DNA from: Chloroflexota bacterium
GTDB lineage: Bacteria; Chloroflexota; Dehalococcoidia; Lucifugimonadales; UBA3495
NCBI GenBank assembly: GCA_009837355.1
Contig: VXTR01000041.1
Span: 1 to 46,036, forward strand
Direction: 5' to 3'
DNA: 46,036 bases
Below are positions 54 through 45,909 of the stretch, piece after piece (position 1 is the stretch's first letter; each line of letters opens with the position of its first letter). The translations under genes were made by a program, and so were the position numbers. The notes under the pieces were generated by a model. The model did no database searches and was not told where the DNA came from. It saw nothing but the letters and a program-made list of their open reading frames with translations.

Positions 54-1742
54 TCAGATGGGGAGCAGGCCTTGCTGGGGTTGAGTCCAGGGCGCGGCGT
101 AAAGGGGCGCAATCAGAGGAGCGCGAGGCATGGGCAGTTCGCCGAAGGGAACGTCGATGACTACGGGAGCTTGTCGTTCCAGGGCTTCCGGGAGCAGCCG
201 TTGGAGGTCCAGAGGACTGTCGGCCCGCATTCCGACGGCGCCGAAAGATTCCGCGAGGGCGACGAAATCGGGGTTGTGGAGGTCGGTCTCGTAGGTTCCG
301 CCGAAGAAATCGTCGAGGTCTCCGGCCACGTTGCCGTAGGAATCGTTCCGCCAGACGACGGTTACCACGTTGATGCCGTACTTTACGGCGGTGGAAAGTT
401 CCGAGGAGTTGAACAGGAATCCGCCGTCTCCCGCCATGCAAATCACCGGGCGTTCCGGCCGGGCCACCTTGACGCCCAGGGCGATGGGGAAAGCGGAACC
501 GAGATTGAAGGAATAGCCGGAATCGACGTAGGTTTTGGGGTGATGCACCTGGTAGTGGGTACGGGCGTAGAATCCCCACTGGGATACGTCCCAAACGACG
601 AAGGCGTCCTCCGGAATCGCGCTCTGTACGGACTCTAAGATTGGATACTGGGGTTCCTTGTCCCGGATGTCGTAGTAGGCGATGAGACGCCGGGCGGCGA
701 TTACCGCTTCGGCAGGCGAGGGTCGGTCGCCGGCGCCGGCTTCGACAAGATGGGGGAGCAGCGCTTCAATGGTGGCCCTGGCGTCGCCGTGCAAGGGGAT
801 GGTGTTGCTTTGAATCCTGGTAAGGTCGAAATCGTCGATGTTGATGTTGATGAGGGTGGACGCCTCGCCGGCCGGGTTGCCCAGCGCGAAGCGGGAGCCG
901 ATGCCAATAACGACATCGGCGGCTTGCATCACCCCGTGGAGTTGGTTCATCTCTTGTCGTTCGCCCCTGGGGCTGAGGCAGGCGCCGTAGGACATGGGAT
1001 GACGGTCGGGGATGGTTCCCTTGCCGCCGGCGGAAGTTACAACGGGAATGTTGGTAGCTTCGGCCAGTTTAACCAGGGCATCCTCGGCGTCGGAGCGAGC
1101 CACTCCGCCGCCGGCGAAGATAATGGGGAACCGGGATTGGGCGATGACGCGGGCGGCCTCTCGAAGCTGTTCCGCGCTGGGCACAATCCGGGAAATGGGA
1201 GCCGGGTTGCGCAGTTGGACTTCTTCGCGCTCTACGCCCGTTTCAGGCGGGAGTTCGATGAGTACGGGACGGGGGCGACCGGTGCGCATTTGCCGGAAGG
1301 CTTCGAACACGGCGTCGGGTACGTCCCGGGGTCGCATGGCGAGGCGCTGCCACTTGGTGACCGACTTCACAGTGCCGGCCTGGTCTGCTATTTCGTGGAC
1401 GGCTCCGATGTTTCGTCCCATGGCGCCGCGGGGGATCTGCCCCGCGACCAGGAGCACCGGGGAGGAACGGGAGTAGGCGGTGGCCAGGCCGGAGGCGGCG
1501 TTGTAGAGACCGACGCCGGGGACTACCATGGCTACGCCCGGCTTCCCCGATGCGCGAGCGTAGCCGTCGGCCATGTAGGTGGCGGCCTGCTCGTGGCGGG
1601 TGGCAATCATCCTGATGCCGGGATGGTCGCGAAGTCCGGCGACCATTCCATAAATCTGGATGCCGGGAATCCCGAACACGACCTCGACGCCTTCGGCGGA
1701 CAAGGCCGCCGCCAGAGCTTCGCCTCCGCTCATAACCGTCAT
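54..1742 (-). CDS. Thiamine pyrophosphate enzyme, acetolactate-synthase-like
   Basis: A 562-aa protein of the TPP-dependent decarboxylase/acetolactate synthase family, which cleaves or condenses 2-oxoacids in the cytosol. The three-domain layout is visible. The N-terminal Pyr domain has the catalytic Glu in TRHEQAATYMADGYAR (E51). A central Rossmann-like domain follows. The C-terminal PP domain carries the cofactor motif AGDGGFLFNSSE and then WRNDSYGN. No FAD-site assignment can be made by eye and the substrate is unknown; acetolactate synthase, oxalyl-CoA decarboxylase-like and benzoylformate-decarboxylase-like roles all remain open. No small regulatory subunit gene lies beside it. ATG at 1742 has a GGAG about 10 nt upstream; a second in-frame ATG at 1733 is possible. 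It stands alone, divergent from the tRNA and formate dehydrogenase. Confidence 0.88.
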   Translation of the reverse strand: MTVMSGGEALAAALSAEGVEVVFGIPGIQIYGMVAGLRDHPGIRMIATRHEQAATYMADGYARASGKPGVAMVVPGVGLYNAASGLATAYSRSSPVLLVAGQIPRGAMGRNIGAVHEIADQAGTVKSVTKWQRLAMRPRDVPDAVFEAFRQMRTGRPRPVLIELPPETGVEREEVQLRNPAPISRIVPSAEQLREAARVIAQSRFPIIFAGGGVARSDAEDALVKLAEATNIPVVTSAGGKGTIPDRHPMSYGACLSPRGERQEMNQLHGVMQAADVVIGIGSRFALGNPAGEASTLININIDDFDLTRIQSNTIPLHGDARATIEALLPHLVEAGAGDRPSPAEAVIAARRLIAYYDIRDKEPQYPILESVQSAIPEDAFVVWDVSQWGFYARTHYQVHHPKTYVDSGYSFNLGSAFPIALGVKVARPERPVICMAGDGGFLFNSSELSTAVKYGINVVTVVWRNDSYGNVAGDLDDFFGGTYETDLHNPDFVALAESFGAVGMRADSPLDLQRLLPEALERQAPVVIDVPFGELPMPRAPLIAPLYAAPWTQPQQGLLPI

Positions 1743-4212: not shown

Positions 4213-5013
4213 ATGACTACTGCGACCCAGTCCTGGACTTCCAGCATCACCGAGGTGGCCGGCTCCAACGTGGAGGTGGTTGCCGGCGGCTCCGGCCCGC
4301 CGCTGATTATCCTCCCCGACGAGCTGGGGCACCCCGGCTGGCTGCGCTATCACGATGCGCTGGCGCGGAACCACACGCTGCACATTCCGTCACTGCCGGG
4401 CATCGGCGGGTCAGACCAGCTGGACTGGTCGATGAAGATTCACGACCTGGCCATCTGGTACCTGGGCGCGCTGGACAAGCTGGGGCTGGAAGGGGCCGAC
4501 CTGATGGGGTTTTCCTTCGGCGGCTGGCTGGCGGCGGAGCTGGCGACGATGTGTCCGCAGCAGTTCCGACGGCTCATCCTGGTGGGCGCCGGCGGCATCC
4601 GACCGCCCCAGGGCGACATCTACGACATCTTCGAGGTTACGCCGCCGATGTTCATCCGCGACTCGCTGCTGGACGCCGACGGGACGCCGGAGTACCGGAC
4701 GGTTTGTCCTGCCGAGCCGGAGGAGGACATCCTGGAGCGGTGGGAGAACGCGATGGAGACGACTTGCCGGGTGTCGTGGCGTCCGTACATGCACGACCCG
4801 GGGCTGGTGAACCAGGTGTACCGGCTGGAGCGGCTGCCGACGCTGCTGGTCTGGGGCGCGCAGGACCGCATCGTGCCGGTGTCGGCCGGCGAGGAGTACC
4901 AGCGTCGCATCCCCGGCAGCCGGTTGGAGGTCATCGACCAGTGCGGCCACCACCCGGAGCTGGAAGCAACGGAGCGGTTCGTGGAGGTTGTGGAGGGGTT
5001 TTTGCGAGGGTAG
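4213..5013 (+). CDS. Alpha/beta hydrolase
   Basis: A 266-aa alpha/beta-hydrolase fold protein. The nucleophile elbow is GFSFGGW with Ser at residue 101. The acid is probably the Asp in LVWGAQDRIVP, and the His is in CGHHPELE near the C-terminus, giving a complete Ser-Asp-His triad. An oxyanion-hole HG motif is not clear. The substrate is unknown; this shape fits C-C bond (meta-cleavage product) hydrolases, esterases and haloperoxidase-like enzymes. There is no signal peptide, so it is probably cytosolic. ATG 4213 was chosen over the in-frame TTG at 4180 because AGAAGG lies about 12 nt upstream of it and the fold begins soon after. A separate, lower-GC cassette begins 47 nt downstream. Confidence 0.87.
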   Translation: MTTATQSWTSSITEVAGSNVEVVAGGSGPPLIILPDELGHPGWLRYHDALARNHTLHIPSLPGIGGSDQLDWSMKIHDLAIWYLGALDKLGLEGADLMGFSFGGWLAAELATMCPQQFRRLILVGAGGIRPPQGDIYDIFEVTPPMFIRDSLLDADGTPEYRTVCPAEPEEDILERWENAMETTCRVSWRPYMHDPGLVNQVYRLERLPTLLVWGAQDRIVPVSAGEEYQRRIPGSRLEVIDQCGHHPELEATERFVEVVEGFLRG

Positions 5014-5060: not shown

Positions 5061-5915
5061 ATGCCCCCCGAATCTATTAGCAATTCGTACCCGGATTCGT
5101 TAGATGCGTTGGGCGCGGATGATACGCCCATGGTGGACGATGTTGTCGGCGACGGAGAGTATCTAGATGTCTTGCCGGATTGGGAGGACGATCTAGACGA
5201 AATTGAGGCCGACGAGTTCGAGTGGGATGATCCGGAACCTCTGGCAGAGTACGATGGCGAGTTGCAACAGCCGCTTTACGTCATTGAAGACGAAGGCGAT
5301 GGGTTGGGAATTGAGCTACGGATTGATCAGTGGGTTGCTGGGATAGATTCGGCCAGCGCGGCTCAGCGACATCTCGTTGCAGAGTTGCTGAAGGATCTCG
5401 GATACAATCGCCTGCGCCATTGGTTGCCGTGGTTGGATAACCAGCAATGGACGGGCGAAAGCTTACTTCTATTCCTGCGGTTTCGGGCACACTGGGAATC
5501 TAGCCCGCACTGGTGGGAGCACTCATATTGGGACTGGCGTGCCCGCTGCTGGTATCCGGTGCGCAACCGAGACAGCCTTTCCCGGGACGACACGTATGAA
5601 CTGGTGCAGCTTAGGCTGGACCATGGCCCGCACGAAGTAATTGATGAAACTTGGCTGGCTGATTGGCTAGACTTGGGTTTATGGCAACACGGGTTCCGTT
5701 CTTTTGCATCTTTTGCGGTATTCCGTGCCAGATTCTCTCCCGGTGATAACTGGCAACGACATATCGAATGGTACGCGCCGGTCCATAGGGATGACGAAGC
5801 AGCAGAGCATCGGTGGAATGACGGTCATCATCTCTACCGCTGTGGCCCTCCACTGTGGTTCGCCGAGCAAAACTGGTACGAACCCGTCGAGTGGCATGAT
5901 AGTCTAGGTTGGTAA
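5061..5915 (+). CDS. Acidic, Trp-rich protein of unknown function, paired with helicase
   Basis: A 284-aa protein I do not recognise. Residues 1 to about 80 are strongly acidic (runs such as DWEDDLDEIEADEFEW) and probably disordered or DNA-mimic-like. The rest is exceptionally rich in Trp, with clusters such as SSPHWWEHSYWDWRARCW, and has several WL/WH-containing segments. No catalytic motif stands out. The open frame extends upstream over the neighbouring hydrolase, but base use and reading frame mark ATG 5061 as the start. It is followed after 33 nt by the SNF2-type helicase on the same strand, with similar lower GC than the surrounding genes, so the two probably form one transcript. An accessory or regulator of the helicase is an inference from this pairing. 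Confidence 0.72.
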   Translation: MPPESISNSYPDSLDALGADDTPMVDDVVGDGEYLDVLPDWEDDLDEIEADEFEWDDPEPLAEYDGELQQPLYVIEDEGDGLGIELRIDQWVAGIDSASAAQRHLVAELLKDLGYNRLRHWLPWLDNQQWTGESLLLFLRFRAHWESSPHWWEHSYWDWRARCWYPVRNRDSLSRDDTYELVQLRLDHGPHEVIDETWLADWLDLGLWQHGFRSFASFAVFRARFSPGDNWQRHIEWYAPVHRDDEAAEHRWNDGHHLYRCGPPLWFAEQNWYEPVEWHDSLGW

Positions 5916-5948
5916 AAGGTAACCGGTGGATTTCAGGAAGCTGCCGAT

Positions 5949-8807
5949 ATGAGCACCTATCAGCACGCAACAGACATCATCCCTGTCGTCGGATGCTGCG
6001 TAGCCCACACCGACCCCGAACGTTATCCGAGAGCCAGAGGGGTCGTTCTGAGTCATGGGGACGACACCAGTCGCCTTGATTCTGTACAGGTGCGATGGGG
6101 CAGTGGTGGAACATCGGAATGGCACCTAGTGTCGGAATTGCGGAGCGGTTTCCGCAAGGGTGACGAAGTCCAGGACATTCCCCGTTCTCACACACGCCGG
6201 CCGTTAGGGCGGGGCAGCGTGGCCAACGCCCGCAATATCGCGGGGCGGGAGCAAGTTCTGGTGCAACTGCACAACACCGGCGAAACGGCTTGGCTGCCGT
6301 ACCAGAACTTGCGGCTTATTCGCAGAAGCGCGCCCGATGCCGATAGTGCAGAGCGTTTTCGCTTGAAAGCATTAGCCTACGCTTTAGATTCCTGGAACCA
6401 ACTAACCGGTGCTCTTGACCGCTTTGACGTTGACCCATTACCTCATCAAATTGACTTGGTGCATCGCATAATGACGTCCGACCGCAGAGATTGGCTAATC
6501 GCCGACGATGTGGGATTGGGCAAAACCATTGAGGTCGGGTTGTTGCTGGCCGCTAAACGACGGCAAGCGCGCCGGGTGCTGGTTGTATGCCCCGCGGGAA
6601 TGGTACAGCAATGGAAAGATGAAATGCAGGACAAGTTCAACGAGGCTTTCCGCATCTACGGTCAAGATTTCAACATCGAACGACCGGGCGACTGGGCTAC
6701 GCACCGGTACGACAAAGTCATCATGTCCATTGACCGTGCCAAATCCGACAATCATTTGCCTCTGGTCGCTGACACTGATTGTGAATCTTGGGACGTAGTT
6801 GTTTTCGACGAAGCTCACCACTTGAGTAAGATTGCCGGCCAAGCCGTCACGCAGCGCTATCGTCTGGCTGAAAGGCTGCGCCGGATGGCGGACGAGTTCA
6901 TATTTCTCACCGGCACACCTCATCAGGGAGACCATGAACGGTTCGCACACCTATTGCGTTTGCTACGCCCCGATCTAACGCGTCGCCTGGCTGGTGCTTT
7001 CACGGATCCATCGGTGGTTGCTGAAATAGTGCTGCGCAATCGGAAGAGCCTAGTTACCGACGCGCAAGGTGATTTCCTGTTCCGGGGACAAGACACCCGA
7101 CGGATTGAAGTGCCTTTCTCAGAGACAGCCCGCTCTTTTGACACTCTGTTGCAGAATTACCTGCGTCATGGCTATGACGCTGCGGCCATTGGGGGCAACG
7201 CAGGCCGGGCCATCGGATTCGTGATGACTACTTACCGCAAGCTCGCCTCTTCCAGCATAGCTGCCATCGACCGCGCACTACGGCGGCGACTCGCCCGTTT
7301 GCAAGGTGGCGATAATACCCAATCACCCAATGACATACGATCTCCTTTCGGGGACAATTTGAACATAGACGCTTTTCAAGACGGTACCGACAGTCGTGAT
7401 GACTTGGACAGCTTGGCCGATATAGCCGCTGCGTCTTTCTTTGACGACGAACAGCAGCAGATAAGCGAACTGCTGGCAGCAGGGACAACAGTCAAAGCCG
7501 ATGATCGCAAGTTGGCACAGTTTTTGTCGAAAATCGTTGAACCGCTGCATCAGGCAGGCGAGCGGTTGCTGATTTTTACCGAATACCGCGCCACACAATC
7601 ATACTTGGTTAGCGCGTTGGAGGAGCTCTATCCTCAAAGCAAGGTTGCTCAAATCAACGGCGCTATGGATTTGGCAGAAAAAAGGCGAAATATTGACCAG
7701 TTCAACGAATCAGCACAATTCATGGTATCCACGGAGGCTGGTGGGGAAGGGTTCAACCTGCACGAAAATTGTCACATTCTGGTCAACTATGACCTGCCCT
7801 GGAACCCTGCACGACTGGTACAGCGGGCAGGACGTCTGTATCGTTACGGCCAGCAGGAACGGGTTTTGGTATTCAACCTGATGGCGAGTGATGGTTTCGA
7901 CAGCCAGGCGTTGGGCAAGATGCTGGACCGTGTTGACCTCATTGCGGAAGAAATGGCTTCGGTAAGTACGGAGTTTCAAGAAGGCCTCCATGACGAGATT
8001 ATCGGCGAACTGCTTGAGCGCATCGATATGGCGTCCATTCTGGCTGACAATCGGGCGATGGACATAAGCCGTACTGATGACGAAATTGAAACCGCAATTG
8101 ATCGAGCCAAAGAGGCGAGAGCACAGCAGGAGCAACTCTTTGCCCGCGTAGAAGGCTTTGACCCCCAAGCAGCAATGGCTCTTACCGGGTTTGAGCCTGA
8201 GGATGTGATGTCCTTTTTGGAAGGAGTTCTTCCATTTCGCAACATCCGTATCAGAGAGCGCCTGTATAACGGACGTGTATTGGAACTAGAGCTGCCAATG
8301 GATATGCGAGGCCAGTACTACGACGAGTTTGAAAACCGCACCATAGTACGAGTTACCGCCACGCGAGATCCGCAAATTCGCCGTGCCAACGCCCGGCCAA
8401 TGGACTTTGCCAGCGCTTTCTTCTCCAATCTAATTGATTTCGCCAAGTCGCCGGAATTCAAAGGAGAGCAAGCCAATCTAGTCGGCTACAGTTCGGGGGC
8501 CCTCGCTATCTACAAATTGCGGTGGCAGAATGATCAAGGCGTTCCCACAGAGGAACAGTTGCTACCTATCTTCCTTCCAGACGGAACTAAGCAGACCGTT
8601 GTCAACCCGGCCTTCTTTATCGACTTGCTTACAACACCGGCAGTTGGTACCACACCGTCGCATCCTGTAAACCCCGACGACAGGCGGGACATATCAAGAA
8701 TACTTGCGCAATGCGCCGATGATGAACTGGGGAGGCGTTGCACAGAGCTGCGTCATCCCAACGACGCAGTGCTGCTAGCCGAAGCTGACATCAGAGTTGA
8801 CGTCTAG
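5949..8807 (+). CDS. RapA/SNF2-type DEAH helicase
   Basis: A 952-aa SNF2-superfamily ATPase. The N-terminal 120 residues look like small beta-barrel (Tudor/SH3-like) modules, as in RapA/HepA. Helicase lobe 1 has motif I DDVGLGKTIE (about residue 190), motif Ia VVCPAGMVQQW, motif II DEAH (about residue 288) and motif III FLTGTPHQGD. Lobe 2 has LLIFTEYRATQ (about 540), the motif V segment STEAGGEGFNL, and motif VI QRAGRLYRYGQ (about 630). A 300-residue C-terminal region is unassigned. It would be a double-stranded-DNA translocase that remodels protein-DNA complexes. AGGAAG lies 8 nt before the ATG. Base composition is lower in GC than flanking metabolic genes, suggesting transfer. A DISARM DrmD-like defence role is possible, but none of the other DISARM genes is present. 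Confidence 0.9.
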   Translation: MSTYQHATDIIPVVGCCVAHTDPERYPRARGVVLSHGDDTSRLDSVQVRWGSGGTSEWHLVSELRSGFRKGDEVQDIPRSHTRRPLGRGSVANARNIAGREQVLVQLHNTGETAWLPYQNLRLIRRSAPDADSAERFRLKALAYALDSWNQLTGALDRFDVDPLPHQIDLVHRIMTSDRRDWLIADDVGLGKTIEVGLLLAAKRRQARRVLVVCPAGMVQQWKDEMQDKFNEAFRIYGQDFNIERPGDWATHRYDKVIMSIDRAKSDNHLPLVADTDCESWDVVVFDEAHHLSKIAGQAVTQRYRLAERLRRMADEFIFLTGTPHQGDHERFAHLLRLLRPDLTRRLAGAFTDPSVVAEIVLRNRKSLVTDAQGDFLFRGQDTRRIEVPFSETARSFDTLLQNYLRHGYDAAAIGGNAGRAIGFVMTTYRKLASSSIAAIDRALRRRLARLQGGDNTQSPNDIRSPFGDNLNIDAFQDGTDSRDDLDSLADIAAASFFDDEQQQISELLAAGTTVKADDRKLAQFLSKIVEPLHQAGERLLIFTEYRATQSYLVSALEELYPQSKVAQINGAMDLAEKRRNIDQFNESAQFMVSTEAGGEGFNLHENCHILVNYDLPWNPARLVQRAGRLYRYGQQERVLVFNLMASDGFDSQALGKMLDRVDLIAEEMASVSTEFQEGLHDEIIGELLERIDMASILADNRAMDISRTDDEIETAIDRAKEARAQQEQLFARVEGFDPQAAMALTGFEPEDVMSFLEGVLPFRNIRIRERLYNGRVLELELPMDMRGQYYDEFENRTIVRVTATRDPQIRRANARPMDFASAFFSNLIDFAKSPEFKGEQANLVGYSSGALAIYKLRWQNDQGVPTEEQLLPIFLPDGTKQTVVNPAFFIDLLTTPAVGTTPSHPVNPDDRRDISRILAQCADDELGRRCTELRHPNDAVLLAEADIRVDV

Positions 8808-8821
8808 CGGTTTTGCCGCTA
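8805..8821. terminator. Short hairpin between convergent genes
   Basis: TAGCGG-TTTTG-CCGCTA forms a 6-bp stem spanning the helicase stop and reaching the convergent protease stop. It lacks a clear U tract on either strand, so terminator function is only possible. Confidence 0.3.
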
Positions 8822-9175
8822 CTTCAGCGAGCCTACTACCGGGATCAGGCGCTGGTTGTAGGGGTCGACGGCAAGGAAGACACCTTCCAGGGTGTAGGCG
8901 CCGAGGAGGGGCGACGTGCCTTCCTCACCGAAGATTACCCAGGTGCCGGTTTCGCGGCCTTCAACCATCGCTCGCGCTTCGGCCATGTCCAGCTCGACGC
9001 GCTGGCCACCGGCGTACTCGAAGGTTTCCCGCTTGGTCGGGGTGATGCCCAGACCCTCCAGGATGGAGCGCGGGATTACCGTCGTGACGGCGCCGGTGTC
9101 CACCATTACATCGACATCCTCGAAGTGCTCGCCGTTGAGGTTGCCGATTTGGATGGTTACGTTGAATATGCCCAT
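8819..9175 (-). CDS. Retropepsin-like clan AA aspartic protease
   Basis: A 118-aa single-lobe aspartyl protease-like protein. The catalytic motif VDTGAVTTVIP (Asp at about residue 27) and the C-terminal hydrophobic-Gly motif LLGAYTLEG match the DTG/LLG pair of bacterial retropepsin-like families. Such proteins act as homodimers. They are often small cytosolic proteins of unknown substrate, frequently beside toxin-antitoxin-type genes. There is no signal peptide. It lies 12 nt downstream of the TPP enzyme stop on the same strand, but a good -10 box sits in the gap. A second family member lies at 35779-36165. Confidence 0.85.
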   Translation of the reverse strand: MGIFNVTIQIGNLNGEHFEDVDVMVDTGAVTTVIPRSILEGLGITPTKRETFEYAGGQRVELDMAEARAMVEGRETGTWVIFGEEGTSPLLGAYTLEGVFLAVDPYNQRLIPVVGSLK

Positions 9176-9181
9176 GACTGC

Positions 9182-9190
9182 ATTATATCA
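9182..9190 (-). promoter_or_regulatory. Extended -10 element, possibly for a leaderless mRNA
   Basis: On the minus strand TGATATAAT is an extended -10 with a perfect TATAAT (9182-9187). The A of the protease ATG (9175) lies 7 nt after it, the usual -10 to +1 distance. Transcription would therefore begin at or next to the start codon. No TTGACA-like -35 is visible and no Shine-Dalgarno can fit. Confidence 0.45.
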
Positions 9191-10855
9191 GTGGGCCACC
9201 GGGCTGGGGGACCAGCCGCCGTAGCGGGGGTATTGGGAGCAGATGAACTCCAGGTAGGAGGGCTGGCCGGTTTCGTTGGCGGCCAGGGCGCGCTGGAAGG
9301 CCGGAATGACCTCCGACGGCTCGGTTACCCGCTCGGCGTAGAGGCCCAGCTCGGCCACGGCCCGGGACATATTCACGTCCTCCGGCCCCATGACGCGATG
9401 CGTGTAGGGGTCGTGGCCGTCGCCCCAGAAGCCGGGCCCGTAGCCGGCGAACCCGCCGTTGGCGACGTGGGCGATGGTGATGCCCAGGTTCTGGCGCACG
9501 GGAACCTCAAGGTTGCCCAGCATATAGCCCACGCCGGCGTCGCCCGTTACCGCCACCGACTGCCGCTCGGGATAGGCCAGCTTGGCGGCCATGGCGCCGG
9601 CCAGTCCGAAGCCCAGGGTGGAGATGTTGCCCCAGCCCAGGAAGCCGCGGGGTATCAGCGTGTCATAGACGGTGCTGAGCTGGTCGCGGGTGTTGCCGGA
9701 GTCGTGGGTTACGAAGGAGTTGTACGGGTCCAGGACTTTCATCATGTCGCCATAGACGCGGTAGGGATTGATGGGCGCGTCGCCGGAGGCCATGGCCTCG
9801 CGATACTCCGCCAGGCCGGCGTCACGGGCGTTGCGGACTTCGGCGACGACGTTGCCGGCGGGACGGCCGGCGCCGTCGGTGCGGCGAGAGGCTTCGTCGG
9901 CCAGCGCTTGCAGGGTGAACCGAGCGTCGCCCAGCACGGCGTGATGGGTCGGATAGATGCGGTTGAGGTGGAACTCGTCCAGGTTACACTGGATGATGGT
10001 CTTGCCCGGCGCGTTGGGGATGCCGTGGGTGAAGCGGCCGGGGGAGAGGCTGCTGCCCACGGTGAGGATGACGTCGCTCTTGTTGAGGTAGGCGATGGGA
10101 TGCTCGCCGCGCACGCCAACGAACAGCGGGTGGTTTTCGGGGAAAGCGCCCTTGGCCTTGAGGGTGGTGATGACCGGCGCGTTGAGCAGCTCGGCCAGGG
10201 CGGTGAGCTCGGCGGAGGCGCCGGCGTAGATGACGCCCTCGCCGGCGTAAATCAGCGGGTTGGCGGCGTCCAGCAGCAGGTCGATGGCCCGGGCGACGTC
10301 GGACGGGTCGGGAGCGGACTTGTAGCCGCGGACCGGATGGTACGGGTCGGCGGTTTCGTCGTAGGTGGCGGCGGCGTTGGGCACGGCCAGGACGACGGGG
10401 CCGGGCCGTCCGCTGCGCAGCATGGAGAAGGCGCGGCGCAGGAACTCCGGTGTGCGTTCGGGTCGGTCGATGTAGCCGAACCACTTGGTGACGGTCTTGA
10501 GGCTGGTGGTGACGTCGAACTGGGTGTTCTCGGTGCTGCCGGCCGGCACGCCGTCGGTGATGCACAGCATCGGCGAGTTGTCCTCGAAGGCTTGCGCCAG
10601 GCCGGGGTAGGAGTACTGCAATCCGGCGCCGTTGACGCCGCCCTGGACGGTGCAGACGCCGATGCGGTCGCCGCCGGTAACGCGAGAGTAGGCGTCGGCC
10701 AGGGCGACGGCGTAGCGGTCGTCGCGCATCATAATCATGGGCACGCCCTCGCGGCCCAGGGCGTTGTTGACGCGGCAGACGGGGAAGGTGGAAACCCACT
10801 GGACGCCCTCCTGCTTGAGGATGCGGGCGATAGAAGTGGCAACGTCGATGCTCAT
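9188..10855 (-). CDS. Atypical thiamine pyrophosphate enzyme
   Basis: A 555-aa TPP-enzyme-family protein with the same three-domain order as acetolactate synthase. The region aligned with the catalytic RHEQAA motif reads RDDRYAVALADAYSR, so the universal cofactor-activating Glu is Asp (D46). The PP-domain GDG motif is GDAGVGYMLGN, followed by VANGGFAGYG. These deviations leave cofactor binding plausible but suggest an unusual reaction; glyoxylate carboligase is a known family member that also lacks the Glu. The frame is open to 10978, but ATG 10855 has GAGG upstream and matches the family start (MSIDVATSIARIL). It is divergent from a small membrane protein. The substrate is unknown. Confidence 0.85.
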   Translation of the reverse strand: MSIDVATSIARILKQEGVQWVSTFPVCRVNNALGREGVPMIMMRDDRYAVALADAYSRVTGGDRIGVCTVQGGVNGAGLQYSYPGLAQAFEDNSPMLCITDGVPAGSTENTQFDVTTSLKTVTKWFGYIDRPERTPEFLRRAFSMLRSGRPGPVVLAVPNAAATYDETADPYHPVRGYKSAPDPSDVARAIDLLLDAANPLIYAGEGVIYAGASAELTALAELLNAPVITTLKAKGAFPENHPLFVGVRGEHPIAYLNKSDVILTVGSSLSPGRFTHGIPNAPGKTIIQCNLDEFHLNRIYPTHHAVLGDARFTLQALADEASRRTDGAGRPAGNVVAEVRNARDAGLAEYREAMASGDAPINPYRVYGDMMKVLDPYNSFVTHDSGNTRDQLSTVYDTLIPRGFLGWGNISTLGFGLAGAMAAKLAYPERQSVAVTGDAGVGYMLGNLEVPVRQNLGITIAHVANGGFAGYGPGFWGDGHDPYTHRVMGPEDVNMSRAVAELGLYAERVTEPSEVIPAFQRALAANETGQPSYLEFICSQYPRYGGWSPSPVAH

Positions 10856-13975: not shown

Positions 13976-15163
13976 ATGGGGAAGCAATCGAGACGAGCTA
14001 GCCGGCGTAATCGCCCGGGCCGGAGCAATAACGCTAACAGGAGTAGCAGGGAGGTGCTAGGCACGCTCTATACTCAAAGCAGTAACTACACGTACGCAGC
14101 CATCGTTACGGCGAAGCCCGACACGGCGCAATCAGGTGACGTGCCTACGGATAATAAGGCGGTGTACATTTCGTCGGCGCGCTTAGGGGATCGTGAAATT
14201 GTGTACGGGAGCCTTCTTCACACTATAGACGAAGCCATTAGGCCGATCTATCAGTCATCGCGCCGCCTGCGGGAAATGAGCGAGATCATCCCGGCGGATG
14301 TCTTCCCATCTGTTGAGTACACAGAATCCGGCGACGGTATTGGGCTCTACACCCTTCCGCCGGGAGATTACTCAGACGCGATAATCCATCAGCAGGAGCA
14401 AATCCTGAAAGACACCCTACTTCTTTCTGGAATACACGTGCGGACATTGTTGGAGGATTTCAGCGGTCGGGGCAATGTCCCAGTACCAATCTACGACTAC
14501 GAGAGTGAACCAGCTGGAAGCGTTTCACTAGCTGAAATATTCAACACGCTTGAGCATTATCGATATTGCGTGGTTTCCGGGGAGTTTGTTCATGACGTTT
14601 TCTCCAGTAAGGGGCAATTGGGGTCCGACCAATTGGTCGGCTCAAAAATGAAGATCCACGAACTCTTCAATGCGATCTTTGTGTTCATATCGAGGATTAG
14701 GATAAAAGACTTTGCAGGTGTCTTACGTGCAAGGCTTGAGAATCTGTCGGTTGATTCCGATAGAAGTGACGCAATATTCGCTGTGCAGAACGTGCATTCC
14801 ATCGCACAAATTATGCACGAACGCACAGTCGTTGTTGGAACTCTACCGGAATTCATAGCAGTTCTCAATCGAAAGTTAGAACTAACGACAAAGGAGAGAC
14901 GCATACTACAGGATGCCGAAGACAAAGGCGAAACGGAAGTCCATTTAGTAAGAATAGGTGGTCTACCGGTCTTCAGTATAGGACGGCTCCTTCACAACAA
15001 GATGATAGAGACGCATATTACTATCAACGGCGAAAGCGAAAAAGTCGAGATCAGTTGGGACGAGTTTTTCAGAGAGCTCGTGAAAGTCCATGGCGATGAG
15101 CCTCTCGTGCCGCGCGAAGTGCTGGAGAAGAGGTTTGAGCATTTAGACGCTGTTGGGCGATAG
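13976..15163 (+). CDS. Unknown 395-aa protein
   Basis: I do not recognise this protein. The first 30 residues are very basic and Ser/Arg/Asn-rich (RRASRRNRPGRSNNANRSS), a possible nucleic-acid-binding tail. The remainder looks globular and mostly helical, without signal peptide or membrane segments. No catalytic motif is evident; a stretch KLELTTKERRILQDAEDKGE is strongly charged. GGAGG stands about 5 nt before the ATG. Base composition is noticeably lower in GC than the operon before it, a sign of horizontal transfer. The next gene, 100 nt on, is a predicted restriction endonuclease of similar composition, so a defence or mobile-element context is plausible but not shown. Confidence 0.7.
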   Translation: MGKQSRRASRRNRPGRSNNANRSSREVLGTLYTQSSNYTYAAIVTAKPDTAQSGDVPTDNKAVYISSARLGDREIVYGSLLHTIDEAIRPIYQSSRRLREMSEIIPADVFPSVEYTESGDGIGLYTLPPGDYSDAIIHQQEQILKDTLLLSGIHVRTLLEDFSGRGNVPVPIYDYESEPAGSVSLAEIFNTLEHYRYCVVSGEFVHDVFSSKGQLGSDQLVGSKMKIHELFNAIFVFISRIRIKDFAGVLRARLENLSVDSDRSDAIFAVQNVHSIAQIMHERTVVVGTLPEFIAVLNRKLELTTKERRILQDAEDKGETEVHLVRIGGLPVFSIGRLLHNKMIETHITINGESEKVEISWDEFFRELVKVHGDEPLVPREVLEKRFEHLDAVGR

Positions 15164-15266
15164 AAAGGGGCGATACGGATGAGTTGACGCTCTGGATGGA
15201 AATTACTTTACTGTTGGCATTGATGCTTCCTTCTAGCGTTGATGCCTCTCTGTGCAGGTGATAAAA

Positions 15267-16043
15267 GTGTCTACCCACACGAACTGGACGCGCCAACAGT
15301 TGCTGGTGGCGTTTGCGCTTTATTGCCGGATGCCGTTCGGCAAGATTAGCTCGCGGCATCCTGACATTATTCGGGTTGCGGCGGCTATTGGGCGGACGCC
15401 GGCAGCGTTGTCCATGAAGATGGGCAATATCGCCAGCCTTGACCCGGCGATTACGTCAACGGGGCGCAGCGGGTTGCGGGCCGCGTCTGCCAACGACCGG
15501 GCCATGTGGGATGAAATGACCAGCGATTGGGACCGCTTTGCCTTTGAGTGCGAACAAGCGTTGATCGCTACTGAAACTACGGCAACCACGCCAGAACCTG
15601 TTGAGCGCGTCGTACCAGACTACGACGATTTGCCAGTTGGAGAAGACCGTGTCACGCTCACGACAGCGCGCATCGGGCAGAATTTCTTTAGGGCGGCGGT
15701 GTTGAGCGCATACAACGAACGGTGTTGTATCACCGGGCTTGCGGTTCCCAGGTTGCTCGTGGCGAGCCACATCGTGCCGTGGCATATCGACGGAGCCAAC
15801 AGAACCAACCCGCAGAACGGCCTCTTGCTGTCAGTCCTGCACGACAAGGCTTTTGATACGGGACTGCTAACCATCAACGATGATATGACGGTTCGCGTGT
15901 CCCGTGAGCATATCGCGTCCGCTGACGCATTTTTCGCAACCGCGGTTGGACACTATGACGGCCGTCCGATTTCTCTCCCTGAGAAATTTGCACCAGATAG
16001 GGATTTCCTCGCTTATCATCGGGAGCATGTTTTCCAAGGCTGA
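15267..16043 (+). CDS. HNH endonuclease, COG3440-type predicted restriction enzyme
   Basis: A 258-aa protein with the layout of COG3440 predicted restriction endonucleases. The N-terminal domain is typical of the family (NWTRQQLLVAFALYCRMPFG, IGRTPAALSMKMGNIASLDP). After a variable linker comes a C-terminal HNH nuclease: CCITG near residue 152, LLVASHIVPW with the catalytic His, then NPQNGLLLSVLHDKAFD with Asn and His. It would cut DNA, possibly modified DNA. GTG 15267 is preferred over GTG 15252 because AGGTGAT precedes it and the conserved region starts at once. No cognate methyltransferase is adjacent; the nearest is 28 kb away. Confidence 0.88.
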   Translation: MSTHTNWTRQQLLVAFALYCRMPFGKISSRHPDIIRVAAAIGRTPAALSMKMGNIASLDPAITSTGRSGLRAASANDRAMWDEMTSDWDRFAFECEQALIATETTATTPEPVERVVPDYDDLPVGEDRVTLTTARIGQNFFRAAVLSAYNERCCITGLAVPRLLVASHIVPWHIDGANRTNPQNGLLLSVLHDKAFDTGLLTINDDMTVRVSREHIASADAFFATAVGHYDGRPISLPEKFAPDRDFLAYHREHVFQG

Positions 16044-42812: not shown

Positions 42813-43754
42813 ATGCCCATTTATCCTACATTCAAGAAGCGCAAGCAACAGGCCGAAAACGCAGGCGAGCCTGTAATTTATAGGGACGACGTTCTGCCAG
42901 ATCCGTTCAGGATTCAAGTGGCACACATTTGGCAGGATACAATCGGAAACGATGACGGTTGGAGATCCGCCAGGGTGCTCACCGCCGACAGAATATGGGA
43001 AAATATGCACCGTACCCTTGCCAGAGAGATGGGAGAGTTCAGGCTATGGGATAGCAAAATGTCAAATCGACGAGGCTGCGAGCTTTTTTTGTTGCGTCGT
43101 GCAGACGTTGACGATGTTCTCAGTCTCATCGAATTATCCTTCCGTGAAGTGGACGGAGAAATGCGAGAAAAGCAAACCCGCGCCCAGTATTCCACGGACT
43201 GGCAATCGGCGGACGATGCCATCGCCGAACTGAACCACCGTTTTCGTGAGCATGGAATTGGCTACCAATTTCAAGGGGGACAGATAATCGCCGTAAACTC
43301 GCAGTATCTGCATTCGGAGGTTGTGGAGCCGGCTATCTCGCTTTTGCACGACGCCAATTTCGGCGGTGCCTTGGAAGAGTTCATGGCCGCCCACAAGCAC
43401 TACCGCGAAGGTAATTACAGGGACACGATCATCAACGCTGGGAACGCCTTCGAGAGCACGATGAAAATCATCTGCGATAGGCGCAATTGGGTGTATAACA
43501 CGAAACCCAGTGCCTCAAAGCTAGTACGCGTGTTGTTTGACAACGATCTCTTGCCGTCCGAACTGGAAAGTCATTTCAGCGGCTTGCGCTCTGCTCTGGA
43601 AAGCGGAGTACCTACCCTGCGAAATCAACCGGGCAGAGCACATGGGCAAGGTAGCCTCTCTGTGGAGGTTCATGATTACCTGGCTGAGTACTGCCTGCAC
43701 CTGACGGCCGCCAACATCGTTTTCCTGGTGGAGGCGCACAATGCAAAGCCGTAA
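42813..43754 (+). CDS. AbiJ-like / STM4504-CBY_0614 family protein
   Basis: A 313-aa protein resembling the STM4504/CBY_0614 family, which is related to AbiJ abortive-infection proteins. The N-terminal half opens with IYPTFKKRKQQAENAGEP and VLPDPFRIQVAHIWQDTIG, typical of the family. The C-terminal half is helical with RDTIINAGNAFESTMKIICD and LRNQPGRAHGQGS, a HEPN-like layout. GAGGACTATC precedes the ATG. Lower GC than the quinone cluster. A phage-defence role (RNA or tRNA cleavage by a HEPN domain) is an inference from family, and the catalytic RxxxxH motif is at best represented by RNQPGRAH. It sits head-to-head with none; the methyltransferase gene converges on it. Confidence 0.8.
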   Translation: MPIYPTFKKRKQQAENAGEPVIYRDDVLPDPFRIQVAHIWQDTIGNDDGWRSARVLTADRIWENMHRTLAREMGEFRLWDSKMSNRRGCELFLLRRADVDDVLSLIELSFREVDGEMREKQTRAQYSTDWQSADDAIAELNHRFREHGIGYQFQGGQIIAVNSQYLHSEVVEPAISLLHDANFGGALEEFMAAHKHYREGNYRDTIINAGNAFESTMKIICDRRNWVYNTKPSASKLVRVLFDNDLLPSELESHFSGLRSALESGVPTLRNQPGRAHGQGSLSVEVHDYLAEYCLHLTAANIVFLVEAHNAKP

Positions 43755-43809
43755 GCTTATTCCTTTCGGCGGCGCGGCCACGTCTGCAACGCCCATCGTC
43801 CCCACAGCC

Positions 43810-45672
43810 TCAAATCAGGCGCGGTGCTGATGCTTCCGGCGCATCTGACGCCAATTCCGTCAACTCTGTTTGCAACCCATACTTCGCCGTATGTATCGCA
43901 ATCTGCTCCGCCGCGAACTGCGTCGCCTCGTACAGGTCAACCAATTCGTTGATGGTGTTCACGTACAGCAGGGAGTTCATCGCGTTGTGTTCTCGTAACT
44001 GTTCCAGCGTCATCTGGTTGCGCTTGATGCCGTTGCAGGTGCGATGCAGCAGCGCCAGGTTGTAGAGTTCATCATTGCCTTGCGCGCCCTGCGTCGCCTT
44101 CCGCGCCCGGATGTGGTCCACTTCCAGCAGCGTTTCGTCCAGGCTGCCGTTGGGCCGGCGTGGCTCGTAGCCGCAACCCCAGCACACCGGGCCGAACCGC
44201 CTAATCAACAACTGCTTGGCATCATCTTTGGAGATACGCCCCGACCAGCTCGACGACTGCGTACTCTGCCTTGCTCCGCGGCGCGCCTGCCGCAAGTAAT
44301 GATGCGGATCGGGGTCAACATCATCTCGTTCCGGGAGTTCGTTGGGGCCGATGGTATAGGTTTGGATAGTCTTGGCCTTCGTATCAGGTAGTGCGGCCCT
44401 GACTTTCGCCATCGCATCATAGCTGGCGTTGGTTGTGTCGGACATTTTCCAACCGTTTTGCAGGAACCGCCGCTTGAGCATCGTCCAAGCCCGATACGCC
44501 ATGTCGCAGGCAACCCACTGCCGCCCCAACCGCTCTGCGGCAACTGCTGTCGTCGCACAGCCTGCGAATATGTCCAGCACTACGTCCCCCTCATCGCTGC
44601 TGGCCTTGATAATGCGTTCGTAGAGTTCCAACGGCTTTTGCGTCGCGTAGCCGGTGCGCTCAGCAGACTGACCCGACAAGTTACGAATGTCGGTCCACAT
44701 ATCCGATGGCACTTGACCAAGGTTGCTGTCCAGATAGCGCTTGATGCTCGGCATACCCCCACTGGCGGGATGAAAAACGAATCCCGCTTCATCCAAGGCA
44801 TCCAATCGTGCCAAAGGGCTGGTAATGTCTCGGTATCCCGGAATGGCGTTGCTTTCAATCCAAGCCGCGTAATTACCAGTCATAGGAACTGCCCAGTGCC
44901 TACCGATCCGATTTGGGTCGTATTCTCGCCAGGGTTGCCCCGTTTCTCCGTATCTCAATTCTGCCGCTGTGAGGTCGCCAACTCTAAATTTCCCGCGTTC
45001 GTCCTCGTGACGATAGAAGCGTTCTACATATTCGGAATCAAGCGGCACTCTCACATCGTTGACGTTTATGCGATTTTGGCGGCTGTAAAAGAGAATCGTG
45101 TCCGACACGTTGCCGAACGTCCTGGAATCATTATGCGCGGACGTTCGCTGCCAGGTGATTTGTGCCCGGTAACTGTCCGACCCGAACACAGCGTCCATCA
45201 GCGTCCGCAGGTAGCTGTTGGCATGGCCGTCACAATGAACGTAGATGCTGCCCGTCGGTTTCAATACCCGGCGACATTCCAGCAGCCTTGCCGCCATGAA
45301 GGCGATGTAGGCCGCCTCGTTTTCAGAGGCGCACGCCTCCACGGCCTGGATCACCGCGTGCACCGACGGGTAATCATCCTCAATCCGCATCTTCCACGCC
45401 GGATGCACGTCCTCGTCCCAACTCCAGATGTCGTGAACCCGCGTCTCCCCTTGACCCTCGTTGTGCTCCACGCCGTGCGCTTGGGCCAGGGCCACTTCCT
45501 CGGCAAACTCCGCGTCGCTGATGGGAGGGCGCGGGTTGCCCGTAAAGGTTTCGTTGGCGGCAAAGGGCGGGTCAATGGCAATCAGGTCGATGCACTCGTT
45601 GTTCAGCCGGCGCAGAAACGCCAGGTTGTCCATCACCGCCAGCGTCCGGTTCGCCACGTTCAGATTGCCCAT
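43810..45672 (-). CDS. DNA methyltransferase fused to an HNH nuclease domain
   Basis: A 620-aa fusion. Residues 1-400 are an N4/N6-type DNA amino-methyltransferase of the beta arrangement: the catalytic motif DPPF comes first (D34PPF, in ECIDLIAIDPPF), and the SAM-binding FAGCATT comes at about residue 368, preceded by GYATQKPLELYERIIKAS. After a linker, residues 490-550 are an HNH nuclease: CWGCGYEP, LEVDHIRARKATQG and LALLHRTCNGIKRNQ. The methylase and nuclease in one chain suggest a self-contained restriction-modification enzyme or modification-dependent activity. ATG 45672 is chosen for its GAGGGCG Shine-Dalgarno; the frame is open to 45831. No specificity subunit is adjacent. Confidence 0.88.
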   Translation of the reverse strand: MGNLNVANRTLAVMDNLAFLRRLNNECIDLIAIDPPFAANETFTGNPRPPISDAEFAEEVALAQAHGVEHNEGQGETRVHDIWSWDEDVHPAWKMRIEDDYPSVHAVIQAVEACASENEAAYIAFMAARLLECRRVLKPTGSIYVHCDGHANSYLRTLMDAVFGSDSYRAQITWQRTSAHNDSRTFGNVSDTILFYSRQNRINVNDVRVPLDSEYVERFYRHEDERGKFRVGDLTAAELRYGETGQPWREYDPNRIGRHWAVPMTGNYAAWIESNAIPGYRDITSPLARLDALDEAGFVFHPASGGMPSIKRYLDSNLGQVPSDMWTDIRNLSGQSAERTGYATQKPLELYERIIKASSDEGDVVLDIFAGCATTAVAAERLGRQWVACDMAYRAWTMLKRRFLQNGWKMSDTTNASYDAMAKVRAALPDTKAKTIQTYTIGPNELPERDDVDPDPHHYLRQARRGARQSTQSSSWSGRISKDDAKQLLIRRFGPVCWGCGYEPRRPNGSLDETLLEVDHIRARKATQGAQGNDELYNLALLHRTCNGIKRNQMTLEQLREHNAMNSLLYVNTINELVDLYEATQFAAEQIAIHTAKYGLQTELTELASDAPEASAPRLI

Positions 45673-45909
45673 GATTTCGCCCTCGGATTCCATCCGGTTC
45701 GCAGATAAAGCCATCTTATCACGCTGGCACCGAGTTCCCCGAATAGGAGCTGTCACTAAAAATCCGACAATCCCGCTGACATCCACCGCTTGACATCTAG
45801 GCAAACATTTGTTCATAATGGCCCTGTGCACATCAAATCAACCAACCCAGCCTGCCAACGAGGTCAACATCACTGCGGTCGTCAACGGCCACCAAACAGT
45901 CAGCTAATC

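Follow-up and report, generated by a model that had tools for sequence, protein, structure and literature searches.

A mobile two-gene module occupies positions 5061 to 8807 of contig VXTR01000041.1, assigned to a Chloroflexota bacterium of the class Dehalococcoidia (the whole 46,036-nt stretch analyzed here is referred to as the window). The module joins a gene for a SNF2-family helicase/translocase to a gene for a tryptophan (Trp)-rich protein, termed the partner, that belongs to an unannotated family, and the two genes are obligately linked. As predicted from sequence and gene context, the pair is probably an undescribed bacterial defense module, since it moves together among very different bacteria and is found among antivirus genes in several of them. 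More specifically, and with a confidence somewhat above even, we favor a mobile two-component module that most likely acts against phages or plasmids, with the SNF2 motor as effector and the partner as sensor or adaptor. No paper on this pair was found in the literature searched, which excluded subscription papers as well as preprints held outside PMC. The module is composed as follows:

5061..5915, + strand: partner gene, 284 aa, ATG start
5916..5948, + strand: spacer between partner and helicase genes, 33 nt
5949..8807, + strand: SNF2-family helicase/translocase gene, 952 aa, ATG start, with a RapA/BrxHII-like full-length architecture

Linkage, spread, and divergence of the pair

Separate searches for the two proteins converge on the same genomes. 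The partner was found in 9 of 60 relatives, and a helicase ortholog scoring >1000 bits was found in the same 9, adjoining the partner in every one. Class-wide, a partner profile and a separate helicase search each match the same 4 of 393 genomes, and within the genus, the helicase ortholog is present in 5 of 14 genomes, at two sites and always with the partner. The initial annotation had proposed a two-gene cassette with genes 33 nt apart, and both its coordinates and the co-occurrence that it asked to be checked hold; the distribution is not that of a housekeeping RapA, which every relative would carry at one shared site and with no partner. A first contig scan with the partner alone as the query returned no match. 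Among 53 relatives recovered by contig scanning, 20 (L039 to L058) are full length at 39 to 75% identity, and all 20 have a partner open reading frame (ORF) directly upstream. The same is true of all 27 distinct copies (these 20 plus the window, G041, three plasmids, G500, and G579), one of which (L052) has a broken helicase frame; in some copies (e.g., L053, L045, and L097), the partner stop codon overlaps the helicase start. Homology among distant partners is based on profile comparison (alignments A3 versus A4: probability 97.6, E = 4e-12, 161 columns; A4 versus A7: probability 94.7, E = 6e-8, 90 columns) and, for L050 and L055, on place in A4 and position only. Two distant plasmid SNF2 relatives, H8 and H20, were left out of the family because upstream of them lie a methyltransferase gene and a gene for a very large protein.

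The spread of the pair is patchy and horizontal. Copies are found in metagenome-assembled genomes (MAGs) of Dehalococcoidia, other Chloroflexota, and Gammaproteobacteria; in Rhodopseudomonas, Bradyrhizobium, Hoeflea, and Sphingomonas; and on plasmids of Nitrosococcus halophilus, Deinococcus actinosclerus, and D. aquaticus. The pair is rare: the Bradyrhizobium family has it in 4 of 296 genomes and the Sphingomonas family in 1 of 298. In the phylogenetic tree, long, supported branches split the family from three other SNF2 rows, and a 13-row clade (support 100/100) unites three gammaproteobacterial with ten Chloroflexota rows; this tree leaves seven forks open and carries a flag on long branches.

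At the same site in two genomes of the genus (G000 and G006), the helicases share 72% and the partners 57% identity; the corresponding values for the flanking proteins are 93% (amidohydrolase-like), 87% (abhydrolase), 93% (thiamine pyrophosphate [TPP] enzyme), and 75% (protease-like). The partner evolves faster than the helicase: in two close pairs, its rate of nonsynonymous substitution (dN) is 0.33 and 0.28, versus 0.08 and 0.045 for the helicase, a difference of 4 to 6 times (NG86 method; the partner alignments take in disordered parts), with dN below the synonymous rate in all four comparisons. Mean column identity is 60% across 20 helicases versus 23% across 21 partners, which would fit a constant effector joined to a variable sensor. 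Divergence of the partner and that of the helicase are correlated (r = 0.94, with 0 of 1000 permutations as high), although shared descent predicts such co-divergence, and the correlation is thus no proof of interaction.

Insertion sites and gene neighborhoods

The pair moves as a unit, and its insertion is demonstrated in Rhodopseudomonas, behind a gene that we take to be nrtR. This gene is present in 15 of 16 Rhodopseudomonas genomes; the site behind it is empty in 11 of the 15 (the next gene follows after 53 to 69 nt) and occupied in 2 (G443 and G579), and for the other 2, a search of the locus did not find the next gene. In G579, a second copy of the final 184 nt of nrtR, 99% identical, follows the helicase gene at a spacing of 4233 nt (L149, 8572-8755 and 12805-12988), and in G443, 33 nt of the nrtR end are duplicated at 97% with a spacing of 4200 nt. 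Between the repeats lie the two genes alone, with no recombinase or replication gene, such that the insert is a mobile unit carrying just two genes. These occupied and empty sites with direct repeats bear out the earlier suggestion of a cassette resembling a mobile element. Because 24 of the 26 places compared give bracketing matches of chance length only, insertion is shown for Rhodopseudomonas only.

The site of the pair in the window is a cargo hotspot, delimited by the following genes:

4213..5013, + strand: abhydrolase gene, left hotspot border, in 14 of 14 genus genomes
8819..9175, − strand: aspartyl-protease-like gene, right hotspot border
9188..10855, − strand: TPP-enzyme gene, past the right hotspot border

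The pair follows the abhydrolase gene in G000, G003, and G006. Five other genomes (G002, G005, G007, G008, and G010) hold 2.2 to 4.5 kb of other, lower-GC cargo from the abhydrolase gene to the protease/TPP-enzyme genes: a C5 methylase, a GmrSD_N-like protein (below cutoff), Vsr, and HNH_2 in G007; NucS_C (just above cutoff) plus PIN in G005; PIN in G010; and proteins without a Pfam match in G008 (471 aa) and G002 (897 aa). The right border falls outside the stretch in G001, G009, G011, G012, and G013, and the view of this site in G004 was confined to the shorter stretch. A second site in the genus, behind a presumably tyrS-like gene, holds the pair in G004 and G007 (2 of 14 genomes), with a MmeI-like enzyme following it in G007.

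As initially described, the window pair stands alone between metabolic genes (Pfam and neighborhood view) and is lower in GC than its flanks. The partner starts 47 nt after the abhydrolase stop, and the helicase gene ends 11 nt before the next, convergent gene. GC content is 0.550 in the partner gene and 0.542 in the helicase gene, and GC at third codon positions (GC3) is 0.582 and 0.575, versus 0.757 to 0.908 in the six genes that flank the pair directly. The pair is not alone in its low GC: the window gene at 13976-15163 has a GC3 of 0.553.

Two further window regions are also low in GC. One spans 13976-16043 (GC about 0.50) and contains a 395-aa ORF with no family match above cutoff and a 209-aa ORF (15414-16043) that is 71% like an HNH_2 protein adjoining the pair in G003 (L033, 7754-8296). 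The other lies at the right end of the window (42813-45831) and contains a 313-aa ORF and a minus-strand 673-aa ORF, the product of which, by eye, has the look of a DNA methylase with an HNH-like C terminus. Many Chloroflexota copies of the pair have genes for TPP-dependent enzymes no more than a few kb away (window 54-1742 and 9188-10855; L035, L037, and L038), possibly reflecting merely the abundance of such genes in Chloroflexota genomes.

Defense genes stand beside the pair in several genomes, in line with the defense-island setting that the initial annotation had proposed to look for. The Bradyrhizobium copy (L151) has DrmA-like, DrmB-like, NERD/helicase, and UvrD-like genes on one side and a serine recombinase on the other, and DUF2924 also adjoins it. 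Neighbors in G500 are the R, M, and S subunits of type I restriction-modification, PDC-S18, a UvrD-like protein, and PD-(D/E)XK, and those on the Nitrosococcus plasmid are Dsr1 (as annotated), AbiU2, a Cap4-like protein (below cutoff), and Mrr_cat (just below cutoff). Weaker cases are PIN_3 near L058, N6_N4_Mtase near L052, a PLD-like protein near L056, and a UvrD-like protein near G022. Methylases are found near single copies only (MmeI-like at L034 and N6_N4_Mtase at L052). The Deinococcus copies stand among transposases, and a gene near the pair on the D. actinosclerus plasmid (L096, 11751-15440) combines an eCIS_core domain with an Ntox15-like C terminus (Pfam).

Such settings could also indicate cargo that serves mobile DNA (through plasmid or island maintenance, anti-defense, or anti-restriction) and not the host, a reading to which the three plasmid copies, the serine recombinase and DUF2924 beside the Bradyrhizobium copy, and the hotspot location all lend some weight. 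We consider it rather improbable, given that the Rhodopseudomonas unit brings no recombinase or replication gene, that most copies are chromosomal and outside any evident element, and that no relative of the pair was found in viral contigs and none reaching 80% coverage in phages. A phage origin of the pair was rejected on these findings in viral contigs and phages.

Properties of the helicase and the partner

The helicase is complete, as first described, with SNF2-rel_dom and Helicase_C domains (Pfam) over 952 aa, and its motor motifs are intact (we take these to be Walker A, GLGKT; DEAHH; and QRAGRLYR). Among the best 25 of 47 PADLOC families, it matches BrxHI/HII at 312 bits, DrmD at 289, and HmaA at 243; its best NCBIfam match is DrmD at 310.9 bits (NF038317, cutoff 610), followed by DpdE at 187, a second DrmD model at 150, and RapA at 140.9 (NF003426, equivalog cutoff 576). 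By these profile scores, it is nearest to DrmD of DISARM and to the BREX helicases, yet it is under every family cutoff. Its AlphaFold2 model aligns with residues 119-967 of Escherichia coli RapA (8spg) at Z 21.8 and a root mean square deviation of 8.0 over 619 residues (22% identity); the alignment spans helicase residues 130-952 and leaves outside an N-terminal module (residues 1-129), and the model shows N-terminal beta modules. The original label of RapA helicase is therefore apt for the architecture but not for family membership.

The structural likeness to RapA also lends itself to another explanation, that of an accessory transcription or repair SNF2 factor (a RapA-like recycler of RNA polymerase) with a dedicated regulatory subunit, spread horizontally for a benefit under stress rather than for defense; the pair often stands alone behind metabolic genes, and an acidic, Trp-containing partner could bind polymerase. 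We regard this explanation as unlikely, as the RapA score is far below cutoff and is exceeded by those of DrmD and DpdE, the pair is rare and patchy even within one genus, and it is encountered in hotspot and defense-gene settings.

The partner of the window consists of an acidic disordered front (residues ~1-78), a Trp-rich helical core with a beta hairpin (~79-238), and a flexible Trp/acidic tail; its AlphaFold2 model is confident over ~79-238 and disordered in front and at 241-271. Trp accounts for 22 of its 284 residues (7.7%), versus an average of 1.8% among 128 called proteins at least 150 aa long (a set that includes partner relatives), and net charge over the first 100 residues is −32. 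The initial annotation knew no family for this protein, and searches of Pfam, PADLOC, and NCBIfam gave no match at E ≤ 1; in PHROGs, one of nine partner-family members has a weak match (E = 0.049). The fold of the core has no PDB match at E ≤ 0.001 (best VIA-align Z 4.7), an absence that does not establish a new fold. The partner represents a protein family missed by current annotation libraries.

The Trp-rich helical core, not the acidic front, is the conserved part of the partner. The front is lacking in some copies and reaches about 200 aa in others, and G007 encodes a natural 220-aa form without it; many partners open with a W..EDF-like motif and then an acidic-P-W motif (regular expression search, partial). 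The Deinococcus partners (L096, 3973-7872; L097, 3967-7911) are about 1300 aa long, with long coiled-coil-like and Pro-rich stretches in place of the acidic front and near-neutral charge, and their C-terminal domain alone resembles other partners. DNA mimicry by the acidic front, as suggested initially, was consequently rejected as the defining feature and is a weak idea since the front is not conserved, although the front of the window partner is indeed acidic. Likewise, the extreme Trp content then described extends to the Chloroflexota partners (5.6 to 8.6%) but not to the alphaproteobacterial and plasmid partners (2.3 to 3.7%).

In an alignment of 14 partners, the invariant residues are W, F, L, R, P, G, and I, with no invariant D, E, H, or K. 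Being aromatic, hydrophobic, Arg, Pro, and Gly, these residues fit a binding protein better than an enzyme. They also bear on a third explanation, namely, that the two genes form a toxin-antitoxin-like or abortive-infection pair in which the helicase restrains the partner, a toxin or nuclease, in the way that HamB restrains HamA in Hachiman. The gene order (unknown protein first, with overlapping or close frames) and, as reported for Hachiman, the precedent of a once-unknown protein that is a nuclease are compatible with this scheme; in the absence of any invariant residue suited to an active site and, as weaker evidence, of a significant fold match to a nuclease, we consider it very unlikely.

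Proposed function and known systems

In the mechanism that we favor for a defense module, the SNF2 motor would be the effector, translocating on double-stranded DNA and probably stripping polymerase and replication complexes from the invading molecule or stalling them there. Its action would be non-nucleolytic, because Pfam recognizes no nuclease domain in either protein. The fast-evolving partner would serve as a non-enzymatic sensor or adaptor; its Trp-rich core and linear acidic/Trp motifs would bind the motor, and the partner would license the motor on a foreign target. More tentatively, the pair may represent a new class of two-component antiviral system, in which a fast-evolving, Trp-rich adaptor directs a RapA-type SNF2 motor, devoid of any methyltransferase or nuclease, to invading DNA (or to the polymerase on it), the whole being a bare two-gene unit that moves by recombination into the 3′ ends of host genes.

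Several observations weigh against a defense role. No defense gene was recognized near either of the Rhodopseudomonas nrtR copies, L057, L049, or most Chloroflexota copies (G032, G040, G041, and L045/L048), with part of the neighbors family-searched, and since there is no matched random-gene control, the defense-gene neighbors constitute a pattern and not a statistic. The helicase model is of moderate quality (pLDDT 71, pTM 0.48), the pair contains no recognizable toxin domain in addition to its lack of a nuclease domain, and the above-mentioned absence from viral contigs and phages applies here as well.

RapA-like SNF2 helicases recur in BREX, DISARM, and ARMADA, where other subunits mask the motor's own role. 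The minimal pair in cultured Rhodopseudomonas, Bradyrhizobium, and Sphingomonas, together with natural empty sites, would make that role directly testable.

Of the closest described systems, RapA has the full-length architecture of the helicase by model comparison, but the helicase scores far below the RapA cutoff and, unlike a conserved chromosomal housekeeping gene without a partner, is patchy, mobile, and tied to an obligate partner. Hachiman HamAB is reported to consist likewise of two genes, a once-unknown protein and a sensor helicase, but HamA is a nuclease, and the partner here shows no conserved catalytic-type residue and no PADLOC or Pfam match at E ≤ 1 (profiles only). DrmD of class 1 DISARM is the best NCBIfam match to the helicase core, although its cutoff is not reached and DrmA/DrmB were recognized beside one copy only (Bradyrhizobium). 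The RapA-like SNF2 layout, to which the helicase aligns over residues 130-952, is also that of BrxHII of type 3 BREX, BREX-related systems, and ArmA of ARMADA; BrxHII is described as comprising a TUDOR domain, the SNF2 core, an inactive restriction endonuclease, and a C-terminal alpha+beta domain (PMC12839542; PMC12458937). In those systems, the helicase is encoded with a DNA methyltransferase and other genes; here, no methyltransferase is constant, none lies directly next to the window pair, and the partner is the sole constant neighbor.

Druantia type III differs in its components: the window helicase is SNF2 by Pfam and scores best with DrmD/BrxH in PADLOC (among the best 25 of 47 families), unlike DruE, which is described as YprA-like (PMC12458937), and the window partner has no PADLOC match at E ≤ 1 (a comparison with the profile library only). 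In organization, however, Druantia type III is the best analogue, being a helicase with a partner protein. Interaction of DruH and DruE is reported to be required (PMC13316683) and the partner to be the likely sensor (PMC13192584), and it is from this organization that we infer, by analogy, the division of the present pair into effector and sensor.

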